A DNA stretch of 64,000 nucleotides from Natronomonas aquatica (GTDB lineage Archaea > Halobacteriota > Halobacteria > Halobacteriales > Haloarculaceae). Location of the stretch: the NCBI RefSeq assembly GCF_024449025.1, contig NZ_JAHLKM010000002.1, positions 124,001-188,000 of the forward strand, written 5' to 3'. The position numbers and the translations under genes were made by a program. Positions 10,114 to 46,713 of this stretch are shown one piece after another. The notes beneath the pieces were generated by a model. That model was not told the origin of the DNA. It saw nothing but the letters and a program-made list of their open reading frames with translations, and did no database searches. Numbering within the stretch: position 1 is the first letter of the stretch; each line of letters begins with the position of its first letter.

Positions 10114-11409
10114 ATGAGCGAGACGGTGCTTCTGGTCGGCGGCGGCGGACGCGAACACGCGATCGCGCGCGCGGTGGCCGACTCGGAACGAGGGGAACTG
10201 TACGCCTGCGCCTCCAACCGCAACCCGGGTATCGCGTCGCTGGCCTCTGGCTACGAGGAGATCGACGAGACCGACGCCGGGGCGATCGTCGAGTACGCCG
10301 ACTCGGTCGGCGCGACGCTGGCGGCGATCGGGCCGGAATCGGCGCTAAACGCGGGTGTCGCGGACGCACTCGACGACGCGGGCGTCTACGCGTTCGGCCC
10401 GCGGGAGGCCGAGGCCCGCATCGAGACGGACAAGGCCTTCCAGCGGGAGTTCATGGCTGAAAAGGCGATCGACGGCTGTCCGGACTTCGAGACGTTCGAG
10501 GATCCGGACGCGGCCGCCGAGTACATCGAGGCCTACGACGGCGATCTCGCGATCAAACCGCAGGGGTTGACCGGCGGGAAGGGCGTCCGGGTGATCGGCG
10601 ATCAGATAACGAAAGCGGAGGGCATCGAGTACGTCCGCGGGAGCGACTACGAGTCGTTCGTCTTGGAAGAACGGCTCGTCGGCGAGGAGTTCACGATCCA
10701 GGCGTTCGTCGCCGGCGGCGAGTACCGCGTCTCGCCTGCAGTTCAGGACCACAAACGCGCCTACGAGGGCGACGAGGGCCCCAACACCGGCGGGATGGGA
10801 TCCTACAGCGACGCCGATTACGCGTTGCCGTTCATGTCCGAAGCCGACTACGAGGCGGCGGTCGGTATCATCGAAGACGTCGTCGGGGCGATGCCCGAGT
10901 ACAAGGGGATCCTCTACGGGCAGTTCATGCTGACCGCCGAGGGGCCGAAGGTCGTCGAGTTCAACGCCCGGTTCGGCGACCCCGAAGCGATGAACACCCT
11001 TCCCGTTCTGGAGACCGACTTCGTCGAGTTCCTCGTCGCCGCCCGCGACGGCAAGGGTCTCCCCGAGCTGTCTTTCGCCGAACGCGCGACCGTCTGTAAG
11101 TACGCCGTCCCGGAGGGGTATCCGACCGATCCCGTCGCCGGCGCGGAAGTGGCCATCGACGCCGACAGCGCGGGCGACGCAGAGCTGTTCTACGCCAGCG
11201 TCGACGCCCGCGAGGACGGTATCTACACGACGACGTCCCGTTCGTTCGCTGTCGTCGGAATTGCCGACTCCATCGCCGACGCCGAGGCCATCGTCGAGGA
11301 CGCCTTCGAGCGGACCGGCACGGACGGCCTCCGTGTCAGACACGACATCGGGACGGCATCGTTGATCGAAAAGCGGATCGACCACACGAGCGAGCTCCGG
11401 GGACAGTAG
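10114..11409 (+). CDS. purD: Phosphoribosylamine--glycine ligase
   Basis: 431 aa GAR synthetase, second step of purine biosynthesis: joins glycine to 5-phosphoribosylamine using ATP. The N-terminal nucleotide fold (ETVLLVGGGGREHAIARAV) and the ATP-grasp core are complete, with KPQGLTGGKGVRV, the signature HKRAYEGDEGPNTGGMGSY and the Mg site VEFNARFGDPEAM. The C-terminal beta domain is present and length is typical. A TTTAGG box near 10083 lies about 25 nt before the ATG. purF is in the same window at 50.4 kb, so purine genes are scattered as in other haloarchaea. Confidence 0.95.
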   Translation: MSETVLLVGGGGREHAIARAVADSERGELYACASNRNPGIASLASGYEEIDETDAGAIVEYADSVGATLAAIGPESALNAGVADALDDAGVYAFGPREAEARIETDKAFQREFMAEKAIDGCPDFETFEDPDAAAEYIEAYDGDLAIKPQGLTGGKGVRVIGDQITKAEGIEYVRGSDYESFVLEERLVGEEFTIQAFVAGGEYRVSPAVQDHKRAYEGDEGPNTGGMGSYSDADYALPFMSEADYEAAVGIIEDVVGAMPEYKGILYGQFMLTAEGPKVVEFNARFGDPEAMNTLPVLETDFVEFLVAARDGKGLPELSFAERATVCKYAVPEGYPTDPVAGAEVAIDADSAGDAELFYASVDAREDGIYTTTSRSFAVVGIADSIADAEAIVEDAFERTGTDGLRVRHDIGTASLIEKRIDHTSELRGQ

Positions 11410-11431
11410 CCCGGCGCCGGTCGGCTACCCC

Positions 11432-11846
11432 ATGATCCGAAGTTTCGAGGGAACCGAGCCGGAGATCGACGAGAGCGTCTACGTCGACCCGACAGCGGTC
11501 GCCATCGGCGAACGTCCAGGACAACGCCGTCCTCTACGAGGGCGTCGAGATCGGCCCCTACGCGACCGTCGGCCACACCGCGATCGTCCACGCCGCGACG
11601 GTCGAAACGCGGGCGCTCGTGGGGATGGGCGCAACCGTCCTCGATGAGTCCGTGATCGGCGAGCGAGCCGTCATCGGCGCCAACAGCCCCGTCACCGAGG
11701 GGACGGACGTAGAGCCGGGAACGCTGTACGCCGGCGCGCCGGCGACGAAACTCAATTACATCGGGGATACCCACTGGACGGAGGCCGGCGACCGGTACGT
11801 CGAACTCGCCCGGCGACACGCCGAAGGCTCCGACAGGATCGATTAA
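11432..11846 (+). pseudogene. Decayed gamma-class carbonic anhydrase-like protein (left-handed beta helix)
   Basis: Broken gamma-carbonic anhydrase/LbH hexapeptide protein. The N-terminus (MIRSFEGTEPEIDESVYVDP then TAVAIGE) is in one frame. From about 11510 the family sequence resumes in another frame (ANVQDNAVLYEGVEIG, GHTAIVHAA, VGMGATVLDESVIGERAVIG, GTLYAGAPATKL) and ends at 11846. Family members carry roughly 28-30 more residues at the junction, including the RGDxxxI loop and the first zinc histidine; here they are gone. The HTAIVH pair of zinc ligands survives. The break therefore removes a metal ligand and shifts frame. It overlaps the convergent nucleotidyltransferase gene by 4 bp. Confidence 0.8.
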
Positions 11847-12562
11847 CCGTTCGTCGACTCGCCCGACAGCCGCCGTTCGGCACGGGCGATGTCCGTCTCC
11901 GTGTTGACGTTCACCCGCCACCCGTCGAGACGAACCGTCTCGATCCGACCGCCGTGATCGAGGAGGTACCCGATCGCGTCGGGGAGATCGTACTCGCCGC
12001 GTTCGGAGGGTTCGATCGCCTCGATCGCCCCGAAGATCCGGGGCGAGAAGGCGAAACAGCCGGTCGTCGAGAGCCGGGTGGGCGGATCATCGGGTTTCTC
12101 GACGATCCCCGCGAGCGTGCCGTCTTCAATCGAGAGGACGCCCCCTCGTCTCGCACGTTCCCGGGAGACGCGTTCGACGAGCAGCGTCGCGTCGGCGTTC
12201 CGTTCGCTGTGGGTTTCGATCACCTCGACGACGTTCCCACGGAGGACGTTGTCGCCGTTGAGCTGGAGGAAATCGTCCTCGACGATCGGTTCCGTCCGTC
12301 CGACAGCGTCCGCGAGCCCCTCACGGCTCGGTTGCTCGACGTACGTGATCGGCGTCCCCTCATAGACGCTCCCGAACCGCTCGTGGATCCGGTCGCCGAG
12401 GTAGCCGACCACGACGACGTACTCGGAGGCACACGGCGCGAGCGAATCGAAGACGTACGAGAGGAGCGGCCGGCCGGCGACCTCGACGAGCGCTTTCGGG
12501 TGGTCGTCGGTCGCCGGCCGGAGCCGGGAGCCGCGGCCCGCTGCCGGGACGATCGCCTGCAC
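11843..12562 (-). CDS. Sugar-1-phosphate nucleotidyltransferase (AglF/RmlA-like)
   Basis: 239 aa nucleotidyltransferase that would couple a sugar 1-phosphate to UTP or dTTP for glycan synthesis. The N-terminal signature AIVPAAGRGSRLRPATDDHP followed by KALVEVAGRPLL gives the nucleotide-binding loop and catalytic Lys; LQLNGDNVL carries the metal-binding Asp. No C-terminal hexapeptide acetyltransferase domain is present, so it is the short AglF/RmlA-like form rather than GlmU. It sits next to the archaellum block, and archaellins are N-glycosylated in haloarchaea, so supplying that pathway is a reasonable but unproven inference. Confidence 0.85.
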   Translation of the reverse strand: MQAIVPAAGRGSRLRPATDDHPKALVEVAGRPLLSYVFDSLAPCASEYVVVVGYLGDRIHERFGSVYEGTPITYVEQPSREGLADAVGRTEPIVEDDFLQLNGDNVLRGNVVEVIETHSERNADATLLVERVSRERARRGGVLSIEDGTLAGIVEKPDDPPTRLSTTGCFAFSPRIFGAIEAIEPSERGEYDLPDAIGYLLDHGGRIETVRLDGWRVNVNTETDIARAERRLSGESTNG

Positions 12563-41187: not shown

Positions 41188-41508
41188 ATGGCTGACGAGG
41201 ACGCCGACAGGGAGGTATCGGTCCGGGGCGACCCGGCCGAGATGGACCTCGAGGAACTCCGCGAGGAGATCAGGGACATCGACCGCGAGATCGTCGAACA
41301 GATCGCCCAGCGGACCTACGTCGCCGACAGCATCGCCGCAGTCAAGCGCGAAAGAGGGTTACCGACGACCGACGAATCCCAGGAACAGGCGGTCATGGAA
41401 CGCGCCGGAGAGAACGCCGAACAGTTCGACGTGGACGCGAACCTCGTCAAGGCGATATTCCGGCTGTTGATCGAACTGAACAAAGTGGAGCAGCGGGAGT
41501 CTCGATAG
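41188..41508 (+). CDS. Chorismate mutase (AroQ class)
   Basis: 106 aa all-helical enzyme converting chorismate to prephenate for Phe/Tyr synthesis. The AroQ pattern is clear: DLEELREEIRDIDREIVEQI with the active-site Arg, RTYVADSIAAVKRERGLPTT with its Lys, and VMERAGENAEQFDVD, ending FRLLIELNKVEQRESR. The first 18 residues are an acidic extension. Length is right for the single-domain archaeal enzyme. The last 33 bp have a diverged second copy about 1 kb downstream, beyond a toxin-antitoxin module. Confidence 0.9.
   Translation: MADEDADREVSVRGDPAEMDLEELREEIRDIDREIVEQIAQRTYVADSIAAVKRERGLPTTDESQEQAVMERAGENAEQFDVDANLVKAIFRLLIELNKVEQRESR
41476..41508 (+). repeat. Direct repeat, left copy (3' end of chorismate mutase gene)
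   Basis: Encodes LNKVEQRESR and stop. Pairs with 42536-42566; the two copies agree at about 25 of 31 aligned positions plus a 2-bp gap, and most differences are at codon third positions. Together they bracket the VapBC module. Confidence 0.55.
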
Positions 41509-41707
41509 GTCGAAATATGTCGATATAGGCCGTATAACCCGCGTTTAGTCCTTGAAGTACTCTTCTGGTAGCTGCTCCTTCGATTAGGATTCGATGAAAA
41601 GCGCCACATCCACTCTCGCTGGCTCTAACACCATCAGCAGCCCCCTGTATTGCCACGAATTGAGGTCTAGACGGGTTCGTTCTGTCCGGTAGGCTCTATC
41701 CACCGTA

Positions 41708-41727
41708 AGACACAGTAATCTGTGTCT
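41708..41727. promoter_or_regulatory. Operator-like inverted repeat upstream of vapB
   Basis: Perfect 8-bp arms AGACACAG and CTGTGTCT around TAAT, ending 14 bp before the vapB ATG. Type II antitoxins with ribbon-helix-helix N-termini bind such palindromes to repress their own operon, so this is the likely autoregulatory site. Confidence 0.6.
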
Positions 41728-41741
41728 CAATAGTATTCTGT

Positions 41742-41972
41742 ATGCCCACTATCACGGTTAACGTGGACGACGCACTCAAAGAGCGGATGGAGAAGCACCC
41801 AGAGATCAACTGGAGCGAAGTGACTCGGCAGGCGATTCGAGACAAAATCGAGACACTCGAAGTGATGGACGAACTCACGTCCGAGAGTGAACTCACCGAG
41901 AGCGACGTCGTCGATATCGCCGACAAAATCAACGAGAGCGCACGCGAGCGCGTCGAAAAAGAGTCGGAGTAG
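41742..41972 (+). CDS. vapB: VapB-type antitoxin
   Basis: 76 aa antitoxin. Residues 1-45 fit a ribbon-helix-helix DNA-binding domain (PTITVNVDDALKERMEKHPE, NWSEVTRQAIRDKIE); the acidic, helical C-terminal part (VMDELTSESELTESDVVDIA) would wrap the toxin. It precedes vapC by 9 bp. The palindrome at 41708-41727 is the probable operator. GC is lower than in flanking genes, in keeping with acquisition. Confidence 0.85.
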   Translation: MPTITVNVDDALKERMEKHPEINWSEVTRQAIRDKIETLEVMDELTSESELTESDVVDIADKINESARERVEKESE

Positions 41973-41981
41973 CCTCGACGA

Positions 41982-42398
41982 ATGAAGCTGGTGGTCGATG
42001 CCAACGTCGTCATCTCCGCGCTCATCGCTGACTCGAAAACTCGTGAACTCATCGTCACGCTCGAACCCGACCTCCTGACACCCAAATTCGTCTACGACGA
42101 GATCGAGAACTACACCGAGTTGATCGTCGAGAAGTCCGGCATGAGTCCAGAGCGAGTCGCACAGTTTGTCGACCTCCTGTTTCAGTACATCGAGGTCGTC
42201 CCCGCCGAGGAGTTCTATCCGCACATCGAAGAGGCCGAAGCAGCGATCGGTGAAACTGATCCCGACGACGTGCTGTATGTCGCGTGCGCCTTGGCCAAAG
42301 ACGCAGACGTCTGGAGCGACGATACCGATTTCAACGAACAAAATCTCGTCGAGACACATTCGACGAGCGACGTGATCAACTCATTCGACACGCTCTAG
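41982..42398 (+). CDS. vapC: VapC-type PIN-domain ribonuclease toxin
   Basis: 138 aa PIN-domain endoribonuclease. The acidic centre is visible: D6 in KLVVDANVVISALI, Glu in KFVYDEIENYTELI, Asp in ETDPDDVLYVACALAKDADV and SDDTDF near the C-terminus. It is expected to cleave tRNA or other RNA when free and to be silenced by the upstream antitoxin. Length is normal and the catalytic residues are intact, so the module is probably active. Confidence 0.87.
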   Translation: MKLVVDANVVISALIADSKTRELIVTLEPDLLTPKFVYDEIENYTELIVEKSGMSPERVAQFVDLLFQYIEVVPAEEFYPHIEEAEAAIGETDPDDVLYVACALAKDADVWSDDTDFNEQNLVETHSTSDVINSFDTL

Positions 42399-42535
42399 CC
42401 GATCGGAACAACCGCCTGTAGAGCAAGCTATCTCTACTTATATATGCCATCTATAGACACCTTCTATATCTCGAATTCAGGGGAGATGGTTTTCGCGAAA
42501 TCAATTTAATCGTATATATGGTGGATTTCAGCTAT

Positions 42536-42566
42536 CTGAACAAGGTCGAACAAAGAGAGTCGATAG
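42536..42566 (+). repeat. Direct repeat, right copy (relic of chorismate mutase 3' end)
   Basis: Reads FSYLNKVEQRES in frame, like the chorismate mutase C-terminus, then loses the stop through a 2-bp difference. No gene reads through it. It lies just right of the VapBC module and before the CNNM gene end. Confidence 0.55.
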
Positions 42567-42584: not shown

Positions 42585-43664
42585 TCACGCCGACGACGGT
42601 CGATCCTGCCGTTCGAGATCGAGCGGATCCTCGATCTCGCCCATCACCGCCTCGAGGGCGTCCGTCGCGGTGACGAGGCCGACGACGGGGCCCTCGGATC
42701 CGTCTTGGACGAGCGCGAGTTCCTGGTGCTTTCGCTGGAACCGATCGACGACCTCGCTGATCGGCGTCTCCGCCCGGATCGTCATCGGATCGACCGCGAT
42801 CTCCTCGAAAGTGATCTCGCCGTTTCGGAGTTCCTCGAACCGATCGACGACCGCGGGCACGTAGACGATGCCCCGGAAGTCGGCCGGGTCCTCGCCGACC
42901 AGCGGGAAGCGAGTGTGGGGGCTGTCGCCGATCCGGTCGAGGTTCTCCTCGGGTGGAACGGTCGTCGAGAGGAAGACGATGTCCTCGCGGTCGGTCATCA
43001 CCTCACTCGTCGGTCGCTCGCCGACGGTGAAGGCGTTGAGGATCTCCGTTTTCCGTTCCTCGGGGAGGTCGCTCCGATCCAGCGTCGACCCGAGTCGGTG
43101 CCGGAGTTCCGCCCGCGATTCGATGCGGTCCGTCTCCGTCTCCAGCCACGCGCCGGTCATCTCGACGCCGAAACGCCGGAGCGTCCACTTTGCGACGCCA
43201 TCCCCGATCATGATGGCCGGATAGATGAGCTTGGCGAACCAGTACAGCGGCGTCGCGCCGTATCGGGCGACGAACCGCGTTCGCTCGACGCCGAGATACG
43301 TGGGCGTCTGTTCGCCGTGTGTCAAATGGAGCAGGTTGATGATCAGAAACCCGACGAGGCCGCCGGCCCCGATCGAGGCCAAGAGCGTGTTTTCGAAGAG
43401 CGGATCGAGAAGCGCCGCAAGCGCCGGTTCCGCGACGATCCCGACGGCGATGCTGGTCGCGGAGATCCCGACCTGACAGCTCGTGAGATAGATCTCGAGA
43501 TCCTCGGTCATCTCCCAGGCCCGGCGCAGGCCCGGAACGTCGAACTCCGATTCCGGGTACTGACGGACGCGGGTCAGCGCGAACTCGATCGCGACGAAAA
43601 AGCCGTTGGCCAGGATCAAGCACACTCCGGCGAACACACGAAGCCCGATCTCGAGTCCGTTCAT
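42585..43664 (-). CDS. CNNM/DUF21-CBS membrane protein (CorC/HlyC-like)
   Basis: 359 aa protein with an N-terminal DUF21 transmembrane domain (about 1-170: VFAGVCLILANGFFVAIEFA, TSCQVGISATSIAVGIVAEP, GLVGFLIINLLHLTHGEQTP) and a cytoplasmic CBS pair (about 205-345: VMTDREDIVFLS, ELALVQDGSEGPVVGLVTAT). Related proteins move or sense Mg2+ and bind adenine nucleotides through the CBS modules. It lacks the small C-terminal CorC domain. It stands alone on this strand. Confidence 0.88.
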   Translation of the reverse strand: MNGLEIGLRVFAGVCLILANGFFVAIEFALTRVRQYPESEFDVPGLRRAWEMTEDLEIYLTSCQVGISATSIAVGIVAEPALAALLDPLFENTLLASIGAGGLVGFLIINLLHLTHGEQTPTYLGVERTRFVARYGATPLYWFAKLIYPAIMIGDGVAKWTLRRFGVEMTGAWLETETDRIESRAELRHRLGSTLDRSDLPEERKTEILNAFTVGERPTSEVMTDREDIVFLSTTVPPEENLDRIGDSPHTRFPLVGEDPADFRGIVYVPAVVDRFEELRNGEITFEEIAVDPMTIRAETPISEVVDRFQRKHQELALVQDGSEGPVVGLVTATDALEAVMGEIEDPLDLERQDRPSSA

Positions 43665-43785: not shown

Positions 43786-44046
43786 TCAGGCCGTGGCGGT
43801 CCCGGTTCCCGGTTCGTCGGCGTCGGCGATCCGGTAGTTCGATTTCCGGGCGTCCATGAGATAGACGGATTCTTCGACGGCGTCGGCGTCGTCGAGCTTT
43901 TTGAGGGCGTGGCGGACGGTTCGCTGGGGGAGCAGGGAGGTCTCGGCCAGCTGTGCCTGTGTCATCGGTCCCTCGTACTGGAGCGTCTTGTAGACGAGCT
44001 TTGCGCTCGGCGGAAGCGACGCGACCGCCGACTCGATCTCTGACAT
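43786..44046 (-). CDS. Winged-helix regulator, MarR/TrmB-like, 86 aa
   Basis: 86 aa single winged-helix domain from the ATG at 44046: SAKLVYKTLQYEGPMTQAQL, AETSLLPQRTVRHALKKLDD, and wing AVEESVYLMDARKSNYRIAD. The second helix (LLPQRTVRHALKKL) is the recognition helix. Upstream in-frame ATGs at 44070 and further would extend it without family support. Small one-domain regulators of this kind are common in haloarchaea; targets unknown. Confidence 0.8.
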   Translation of the reverse strand: MSEIESAVASLPPSAKLVYKTLQYEGPMTQAQLAETSLLPQRTVRHALKKLDDADAVEESVYLMDARKSNYRIADADEPGTGTATA

Positions 44047-44153
44047 TACTGTCTCGAACACACGGTGGGTCATTAATCGTCCGTCGCTTCGACCAGACCC
44101 ACGCAATTTCGCGGTGAGTTTATATAGGTCTAATCGGCGAGGTGCCCGGCCCC

Positions 44154-44375
44154 TCACTCCTCGAGCAGCCCGAGATCCGCCGCGACGTAGTCGGCGAGCT
44201 GATCGAACACGTCGGGATCGACCGCGGCGACCGCCTCACCGTCGTGTACCCCCTCGTTGTGGCGGGCGACCGTCTTCTCGACCTCCGGGAACGGCACGTA
44301 CGTCCGGGTGTCACACTCGGGACAGACGATCGGGATCTCCGGGAGGTCCGACTTCGATTCCGATTCGTCGCTCAT
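44154..44375 (-). CDS. Small zinc-binding protein, 73 aa
   Basis: 73 aa acidic protein: MSDESESKSDLPEIPIVCPE begins it, then CxxC (VCPECDTRTYVPFPE) and later His pair (ARHNEGVHDGEAVAA), together a possible C2H2 zinc site. The tail DPDVFDQLADYVAADLGLLE is helical. No enzyme motif is present and the role is unknown. It is transcribed away from the second cheC, 46 bp after that gene's end. Confidence 0.7.
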   Translation of the reverse strand: MSDESESKSDLPEIPIVCPECDTRTYVPFPEVEKTVARHNEGVHDGEAVAAVDPDVFDQLADYVAADLGLLEE

Positions 44376-44421
44376 GGTTCCTCACTGTGCCCCGGACGAA
44401 TAAAACCGCCCCGGTTCCCCG

Positions 44422-45594
44422 TCAGGCCGCCTCCGCCGGGAGCGCCGAAAGCGCCCGCGTGAGTTCGCGGGTATCCGGCAACACGTACAGCTGTACCTCC
44501 GCCTCCCGGTCGGCGATCTCGATCGTCGTATCGATGGTGAAAGCGTACTCCTGGTCCTTCGAGAGGCGGTTTTGAACCGTCCGTATGACGTTCGCACCCG
44601 AATCGCGGACGAACTCCGGAGGGGTGTGTTCGATGCTGCTCTGGAGGGTGTTCGCCCAGCTGTCGATGAACCCGCTCGTGATGATGTTCCCGAGTTCCTT
44701 TATCGCCGCTTCCGTCATGCCGTCCCCGCCGGAATCGACGCCCCCGGGCGTCATCGCGGCGGCGATCCGATCGGCGGAGCCTTCGCTGAACATGGCGACG
44801 AAGTAGCCGCTCGGCAGCCCGGTCAGCTCGAAGACGACGCTGACGTAGGTATCGGTTCCGACCTCGGCGGACATATCCGAAAACGAGAGAAACCGCAGCT
44901 GGCTCACGCTCACGTCGGTCCGGAGCCCGGTCAGCTGGGCGATCTGCTCGGAGGCCCGGCTCGCGCTCCGGCTGGCGAAGCCGTTGAAGACGGTGAGCTT
45001 CTGGGCCGGGACGGCGAGCCCGTCCGGCTGTCCCTCGAGGAGCTTGACGAACTCGCTGTACTCGGGGATCAGATAGATCGGGACCGAGAGGTCCCCGTCG
45101 ACGGCTTCCAGACGGCTCTCGAAGAGGAACGCGCCGTACTCCTCGGCGTCCCGGCGCGTCAGTCGGGGCAGGATCCGGGTGCCGCTCGCCTCGATGTACG
45201 TCGGCGGCGTGATGTCGACCGAGGTGTTCAGATGGTTCGCCCACCCGTCGACGAAGCCGCCGATCATGATGTTGCCGAGTTCCGCGAACGCGCCGCCGAC
45301 GAGCGAGCCGTCCGCTCCCCTTGCCTCGAGTCGCTTCCGGAGGCGTCCGGCCGACTCCGGATCGAAAATCAACACCGTCTCTCCGGAGAGGCCGCCGCTC
45401 AGCCCGACCTGGACGCCGACGTACTGCCGGCCGGTGAAGATCTCCCCCAGCGTGTCGTCGGTGACCAGACTGACGCCGGTCACGTCGTGACGCATCCGGA
45501 CGCCAGCGATCTGGGACAGCGCCCGCGCGGCCTGGTTCGCGCCGCGGGAGGCGAGGTGGTTGTACGCCTCCAGTTGGTTGATCGCGATCTTCAT
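44422..45594 (-). CDS. Second tandem CheC-family protein
   Basis: 390 aa, again two CheC units like the protein at 13400-14596, but more diverged. The catalytic Glu and Asn are kept in both halves (AELGNIMIGGFVDGWANHLN and KELGNIITSGFIDSWANTLQ, each followed by the TPP proline). The Asp/Ser four residues before the Glu is Gly in the first half and Ala in the second. It may act on a different response regulator or as a binding protein. It sits 30 kb from the che genes with no che neighbour. Confidence 0.88.
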   Translation of the reverse strand: MKIAINQLEAYNHLASRGANQAARALSQIAGVRMRHDVTGVSLVTDDTLGEIFTGRQYVGVQVGLSGGLSGETVLIFDPESAGRLRKRLEARGADGSLVGGAFAELGNIMIGGFVDGWANHLNTSVDITPPTYIEASGTRILPRLTRRDAEEYGAFLFESRLEAVDGDLSVPIYLIPEYSEFVKLLEGQPDGLAVPAQKLTVFNGFASRSASRASEQIAQLTGLRTDVSVSQLRFLSFSDMSAEVGTDTYVSVVFELTGLPSGYFVAMFSEGSADRIAAAMTPGGVDSGGDGMTEAAIKELGNIITSGFIDSWANTLQSSIEHTPPEFVRDSGANVIRTVQNRLSKDQEYAFTIDTTIEIADREAEVQLYVLPDTRELTRALSALPAEAA

Positions 45595-45723
45595 CGCTAG
45601 CTGTGGGCGAGTCTGTCTGCGGTCGGTCGATCCGGGGTCGGGACACGGGCGATACGGGCGGTCATACGCTCGCTTCGTGGCGCCGTATAGTAACCTTCGG
45701 GGCCGACACAGCGCTCGAAAGCG

Positions 45724-46713
45724 CTATTCGAACATTCCGGTCGACATGTAGCGTTCGCCGGAATCCCAAAAGACAGTCACGACGAGCGGACACGCCTCCG
45801 GGATCGGGTCGGGCGATCGGGGTTCGTCCGCCAGGATTCCGACGTCGTTGGTCGGACCGGGACACCGGTCGGGATCGACGTCGTGCTCCTCGGCCAGCCG
45901 CTCGGCGACGCGCTTTGCCGCCAGAAGCGACCCGCCGGAGGACTGGCCGACGAGGATCCCCTCCTCGCGGGCGAGCCGCCGACACTCGGCCTCGGCGGCC
46001 TCGATCCCGACGGTTTCGACGTCGTCCAGCAGGTCCCGATCGAGGTTCGGCGAGACGAACCCCGGACCCATCCCCTGGAAGTCGTCGTCGCCGGGATCGC
46101 CCCCCGAGAGGACGGCGTTCGCCTCCGGTTCGACGCCCACGATCGACACGTCGGGATGCTCCTCCCGCAGCCGGCGGCCGATCCCCGAGACCGTCCCGCC
46201 GGTCCCGATCCCGGCGACCAGGGCATCGACCCGGTGGCCCTCGACCTGTCGGAGGATCTCCTCGCCGGTCGTCCGGTAGTGCGATTCGGGGTTGGCCGGG
46301 TTCTCGAACTGTCTGAGCTGTACCATCCCCGCCTCGGCTTCGAGTTCGTCCGCCCGCTCTTTCGCGTCGGAGATCGTCCCCTCGACCAGTTCCAGGTCGG
46401 CCCCGTAGGCGGCCATTAGTTGCCGCCTTTCGGGCGATTTCGAGGCCGGCATGACGACCGTGAGGTCGTAGCCCTTCGCGGCGGCGGCGACCGCAAGGCC
46501 GATCCCCGTGTTTCCGGATGTCGGCTCGACGATCCGATCGTCGGGGGTGAGCTCGCCGGCCGCCTCCGCCGCCTCGACCATCGCCAGCGCCGGGCGGTCC
46601 TTCGCGGAGCCGCCGGGGTTCTTCGATTCGATCTTCGCGGCGATGACCGATCCGGGCGGCGACTGGACCTGTACCAGCGGCGAGCCGATCGTTCCGAGGA
46701 TACCCCGCTTCAT
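45724..46713 (-). CDS. cysK: Cysteine synthase (O-acetylserine sulfhydrylase)
   Basis: 329 aa PLP enzyme making cysteine from O-acetylserine and sulfide. PLP Lys is K38 in IESKNPGGSAKDRPALAMVE; the substrate loop EPTSGNTGIGLA and the PLP-phosphate glycine loop GIGTGGTVSGIGR are intact. The C-terminal 20 residues (VVTVFWDSGERYMSTGMFE) are typical of CysK. It stands alone. Confidence 0.93.
   Translation of the reverse strand: MKRGILGTIGSPLVQVQSPPGSVIAAKIESKNPGGSAKDRPALAMVEAAEAAGELTPDDRIVEPTSGNTGIGLAVAAAAKGYDLTVVMPASKSPERRQLMAAYGADLELVEGTISDAKERADELEAEAGMVQLRQFENPANPESHYRTTGEEILRQVEGHRVDALVAGIGTGGTVSGIGRRLREEHPDVSIVGVEPEANAVLSGGDPGDDDFQGMGPGFVSPNLDRDLLDDVETVGIEAAEAECRRLAREEGILVGQSSGGSLLAAKRVAERLAEEHDVDPDRCPGPTNDVGILADEPRSPDPIPEACPLVVTVFWDSGERYMSTGMFE

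Follow-up and report, generated by a model that had tools for sequence, protein, structure and literature searches.

Chorismate mutase 3′ ends as a probable docking site for arrays of toxin-antitoxin cassettes in haloarchaea

A VapBC pair between two copies of the chorismate mutase 3′ end

In a stretch of 64,000 nucleotides from Natronomonas aquatica (hereafter, the window), a toxin-antitoxin (TA) gene pair lies between two copies of the 3′ end of a chorismate mutase (CM) gene, raising the question of how the pair came to be there and what the repeated gene end is for. The CM gene, of the AroQ class, occupies positions 41188-41508 of the plus strand (Pfam CM_2, E 1.5e-18), and its last 33 bp (41476-41508) form the left copy. 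The right copy on the same strand (42536-42566) has the sequence CTGAACAAGGTCGAACAAAGAGAGTCGATAG, reads LNKVEQRES in frame and carries a 2-bp deletion directly 5′ of the old stop codon (GAGTC--GATAG); the differences between the two copies are almost all synonymous. Scored with a weight matrix for the repeat, the left and right copies reached 47.3 and 31.1, respectively, and the next best score in the 64 kb, on either strand, was 1.0. The recurrence of the CM end in diverged form at 42536-42566, as proposed in an earlier note on this DNA, was thereby confirmed, and no third CM-end copy was found by the matrix on either strand of the window; a third, decayed repeat considered between a membrane protein gene and an HTH gene of the window was rejected on the same matrix search. 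Taken as sites, the left copy extends over 41463-41508 of the plus strand, with a left arm that codes for CM, a core TGAACAA at 41477-41483 and a right half reaching the CM stop codon. The core of the right site is at 42537-42543, and the 13 plus-strand positions before this site (42523-42535, GGATTTCAGCTAT) form a left arm of a cassette type common to other arrays.

The DNA between the two sites opens with a low-GC leader (41509-41741, assigned to neither strand), which has diverged to an identity of ~0.68 from the homologous cassette of Natrinema versiforme. It is followed on the plus strand by a VapB-like antitoxin gene (41742-41972, 76 aa), called from its adjacency to VapC and from a match to NCBIfam TA_anti_VapB_Sulfo (E 4.9e-08) that lies below the model cut-off, and, after a spacing of 9 bp, by the gene of a 138-aa VapC toxin with a PIN domain (41982-42398, plus strand; Pfam PIN_2, E 2.5e-36). 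With a PIN toxin gene beside a small antitoxin gene, the pair is by sequence a type II VapBC, whose toxin is predicted to be an RNase and whose antitoxin is predicted to neutralize it. The GC content of the cargo (0.52, against 0.65 for the window) and the VapB and PIN_2 matches bear out the low-GC toxin-antitoxin cargo of the earlier note.

The right flank begins with a membrane protein gene on the minus strand (42585-43664), beyond which an HTH-CheC-CysK block (43786-46713) also occurs 3′ of the array at L154 in a second Natronomonas genome, G013. The membrane protein gene is missing from that genome, the HTH gene there standing directly after the last repeat. Shikimate kinase, usually encoded just upstream of CM, is 67 kb away in the window genome (window 41188 versus G000:C29:232855), so that the unit of CM and array is here separated from it.

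Repeats, cargo and empty sites across haloarchaea

CM-end repeats proved to be widespread. Further copies of the CM end, one to four per locus, were present at 56 of 86 haloarchaeal CM loci, and all 81 of these extra copies lay downstream on the CM strand, with none on the minus strand of the 86 loci; the sole upstream match was a pair of CM paralogues in Halococcus. Because the matrix had been trained on downstream copies, the fair control is provided by the minus strand and the upstream DNA, in which the best scores were 9.8 (minus strand, over 1.55 Mb) and 7.3 (upstream, the paralogue apart), the copies themselves mostly scoring 30-57. A separate scan of named genomes yielded 80 haloarchaeal CM loci, the majority with further copies, and within the genus Natronomonas CM loci had up to four CM-end copies. 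By a pattern census, the site occurs in 245 of the 293 genomes of the order, in many of them at two to four copies; the reversed control pattern occurred in none of the 293.

Eighty cassettes were delimited by successive copies, with a median length of 953 bp and a mean GC content of 0.545 versus 0.67 upstream, the cassette being the lower in 79 of the 80. At least 50 of the 80 contained a TA pair from one of six families (PIN/VapC types, MazF, RelE/ParE), Pfam supporting PIN, PemK/MazF and ParE toxins; further cassettes carried a HicA toxin or a HepT-nucleotidyltransferase pair, and the remainder encoded acetyltransferases, cupins, transporters and other genes, this non-TA cargo being named by eye from the sequence or through related annotated records. 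The TA genes are members of the VapBC, RelE-ParE, MazF, HicA and HepT-MNT families and differ from known TA modules in being packaged here as mobile cassettes at one site. They were found in either orientation and so do not depend on a single shared promoter. The VapBC type of the window was also found on plasmids devoid of repeats.

Comparison of empty and filled sites revealed what the repeats enclose. Three species of Haloarcula have a carbonic anhydrase gene directly after CM. A VapBC cassette and a repeat stand between CM and the same carbonic anhydrase gene in H. sebkhae, and an acetyltransferase (GNAT) cassette and a repeat in two other Haloarcula. Aligned to an empty relative, the sequence after the last site was 0.83-0.88 identical for H. 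sebkhae and 0.91 for Halosimplex, and Natronomonas loci agreed at 0.91-0.99 after the last site whether they held one cassette, two or three; the right flanks of the GNAT-filled Haloarcula and of Natrinema gave a weaker match (0.57-0.75). Similarly, the site on Haloterrigena turkmenica pHTUR04 is near-empty and that on Haloterrigena salifodinae pHTS171 holds 4.4 kb in two cassettes, with a 95% identical flank. By these comparisons the attachment repeats bound the element and reconstitute the target gene. Sites that lack a cassette but share the right flank, and alternative cargo between the same repeats, both of which the earlier note had suggested looking for, thus exist, and its view that an element joined the gene at its 3′ end and supplied a replacement end is supported by the comparison. 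That note had also held that relatives keeping both repeats without VapBC would count against its idea; such relatives do occur, and are read here as the result of cargo exchange, leaving the idea standing.

Several loci departed from the common layout. In Halococcus morrhuae (L141, ~10274-12071), two CM-like ends are 870 bp apart and the second retains a CM-coding left arm, unlike the other repeats examined. One Natronomonas (G008) has a CM gene without the usual end, reading LNKIEQNQHGINDGQQSNWDSDEG (L152, G008:C1:275000-292000), and, at a distance of 400 kb, a repeat-bearing TA array on the opposite strand (L155, G008:C1:680410-684710), an arrangement that would fit an inversion with its breakpoint at the junction of CM and array. 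Repeats with no CM gene beside them were seen at L199 (G279:C4), L203 (G096:C2) and L151 (G005:C1, near 1875933); two of these have TA cassettes, one lies on a second replicon and another is close to a TnpB-like gene, and we read them as putative secondary sites or relocated arrays. In G239 (L196 and L197; G239:C48:296596-323199), 26.5 kb separate CM from the next repeat, and phmmer detected no integrase in this interval. Finally, several Natrialbaceae (L206, L243-L247) carry the shikimate kinase-CM locus and an array on a replicon of 160-400 kb labelled as a plasmid, which is therefore likely to be essential.

The exchange point and the movement of cassettes

When copies of one cassette from different contexts were compared, identity on the right continued as far as repeat position -1 and no further, and identity on the left was clear from about position 17, the wobble positions 8, 11 and 14 at the left boundary not clearly travelling with the cassette. 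These limits place the exchange within CTGAACAARGTNGARCA and fix it only to ~16 bp. Most simply, the exchange point would be TGAACAA, at repeat positions 1-7. This heptamer is invariant in CM but for one rare base change, and dyad symmetry is maximal at its centre in CM sites and cassette sites alike. The left arms of the two kinds of site are unlike each other, the cassette arms sharing a common motif that is absent from CM, yet both have an A at -2 and a T at -8, the partners of the T at 10 and the A at 16. Such a layout is that of a tyrosine-recombinase core site and suggests the type of enzyme. Section 19 of a review of archaeal tyrosine recombinases (PMC8371274) asks whether protein-coding targets contain dyad symmetry, and the CM target does. 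That the sites differ mostly at wobble positions would be a consequence of purifying selection acting on the gene end.

Cassettes have changed position and host. Haloterrigena alkaliphila has four single-TA cassettes after CM, the first being of the VapBC type of the window, and its third and fourth cassettes are 91.7% identical to a block that Haloterrigena sp. KLK7 carries fused to CM, the homology beginning at the repeat in both. Two cassettes thus intervene in H. alkaliphila between CM and a block that in KLK7 adjoins it. Likewise, a two-gene cassette that is internal in Haloterrigena salifodinae stands at CM in Haloarcula salina, with 89% identity versus 73% for CM. The same block was at CM in one locus and internal in the other in 54 locus pairs, not independent of one another, and in these the left ends lay within 25 bp of a repeat in both loci, against a chance fraction of ~0.08 per side. 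The VapC gene of the window is 92% identical at the DNA level to that of Natrinema versiforme, as compared to 80% for CM, and along the alignment of the two loci identity climbs within the TA genes and drops beyond the right repeat. For the larger TA families, cassettes are on average about as similar as the CM genes, and transfer is therefore claimed for particular pairs only. The assemblies, the only data searched, contained neither an excised circle nor a mixed population.

Taken together, we regard it as very likely that the CM 3′ end is the chromosomal attachment site of a gene-cassette array built by site-specific recombination. A circular cassette would carry a short site made up of a left arm of its own, TGAACAA as the core, and a right half encoding the CM residues VEQRE(S/N)R and a stop codon. 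Upon recombination with the CM site, the gene would receive the 3′ end of the cassette, and the old CM end would be shifted to the far side of the cassette and persist there as a site. Further insertions, each at CM or close to it, would yield tandem arrays running from newest to oldest away from the gene. The right copy of the window is accordingly best read as a former CM end, as the earlier note had it, but one that was displaced and also serves as a recombination site rather than a decaying relic; that right copies look coding would, on the anatomy of the sites, be due to the need for the cassette adjoining CM to supply a working end. The TA cassettes would be transcription units of their own, in either orientation. 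Loss of a cassette with a TA system would be punished, and this could make TA cassettes self-stabilizing.

Candidate recombinases, competing explanations and related systems

A tyrosine recombinase acting in trans probably moves the cassettes, a step that we infer because none of the arrays examined yielded a recombinase gene, whether among the cassettes themselves, the 20 arrays fetched or the seven plasmid loci. The absence of an integrase from the window, remarked upon in the earlier note, thus holds, but simple decay does not account for it when none of these arrays has one. The loci examined earlier contained three integrases only, all in Haloarcula, ~1 kb beyond the array and outside the cassettes; lying past the carbonic anhydrase gene and missing from other arrays, they were rejected as a linked integrase. 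A neighbouring tRNA element behind them was rejected as well, ARAGORN reporting no tRNA there. The site was absent from virus and phage records in the collections searched: a viral attP was rejected after exact patterns gave no match in viral contigs and none in phage records, and those above threshold among 20 later matches look like coincidental coding sequence.

One lead toward the enzyme is an XerA-like core gene (G000:C78:62127-63167), a candidate for the recombinase acting in trans whose nearest NCBIfam model is archaeal XerA, at a score below its cut-off. Within our preferred explanation, it is conceivable, and we propose it tentatively, that this chromosomal Xer-type recombinase moves the cassettes much as XerCD moves dif modules. 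Every good genome searched, 64 of 64 in the order and 11 of 11 in the genus, has this gene as a single best match, and the arrays never have a recombinase of their own; such universal presence, however, makes co-occurrence uninformative, and the host genome has 20 PF00589 matches to choose from. We know of no haloarchaeal dif, a paper on archaeal Xer/dif makes no mention of haloarchaea, and a dif-like site elsewhere in the host was rejected, since the dyad-core pattern has no match in the 3.2 Mb of that genome apart from the two window sites. The nearest likeness is with the dif (pdif) modules of Acinetobacter, which are likewise TA-rich, driven by XerCD, small, bounded by short recombinase sites, devoid of a recombinase and extensively shuffled (PMC13141974). 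A dif site measures 28 bp, with two 11-bp arms for XerC and XerD and a 6-bp spacer, whereas the dyad core here has an apparent spacer of 7 bp. Moreover, the sites here consist of the 3′ end of a metabolic gene, repeated directly at one chromosomal locus and all on the same strand, without the alternating inverted C/D orientation of pdif, and the recombinase is postulated.

Homologous or microhomology-mediated recombination between short duplications of the CM end, requiring no dedicated recombinase, is in our estimation unlikely. Haloarchaea possess microhomology repair, the repeats are short and imperfect, and no recombinase is linked to them; yet this explanation leaves without account the restriction of the copies to one gene and one orientation, the left-arm motif of the cassettes that is absent from CM, and the dyad contacts shared by both kinds of site.

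The earlier note's own picture, a single ancient integrative element or provirus that entered at CM and decayed to a TA module, suits the two repeats, low-GC cargo and missing integrase of the window, but is rendered very improbable by the many unrelated cargoes found in tandem between the same repeats across the order and by cassettes shared at different positions; such permutation led us to replace it with a reading of the window module as a single cassette within a family of arrays that spans the class. Integrative elements of archaea do target the 3′ ends of genes, tRNA genes or protein genes such as that of HMG-CoA reductase used by virus BJ1 (PMC8371274), and they too supply a replacement 3′ end and leave the old one at the far side; CM is not among the targets listed in that review. 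They differ from the ~1-kb cassettes described here, which form arrays and, unlike a site-specific element with its own integrase gene, contain no integrase.

Least probable, to the point of being hardly tenable, is a true integron, in which IntI acts on folded attC sites: tandem single-function cassettes beside a fixed point, the newest probably next to it, and frequent TA cargo recall integrons, including those of archaea (PMC9668308), but there is no integrase beside the array, attC-type hairpin folding was rejected (seven strands, z -2.2 to 1.0, six of them between -1.2 and 1.0 and one at a modest -2.2), and the text of the archaeal integron survey does not mention Halobacteria. With no IntI and no attC-type fold, the arrays are not integrons by the tests made, and they further differ in the lack of a common-promoter logic and in an attachment site located inside a coding gene.

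Whether the arrays amount to a class-wide archaeal system of cassette capture distinct from integrons, in which a core metabolic gene offers its 3′ end as the platform, every cassette brings a functional replacement end, and selfish, recombinase-less TA cassettes spread between families by means of a recombinase acting in trans, is a proposal on which we are evenly divided. No prior report of a CM-linked TA cassette system was found among the open-access papers searched. It is commonly accepted that TA modules pass from genome to genome, but the way in which a single module travels is in most cases obscure. In the arrays described here, dozens of sequenced haloarchaea, cultured species among them, display the mobile unit together with its ends and its docking site, and both the movement of the cassettes and the addiction that they may impose are therefore directly testable.
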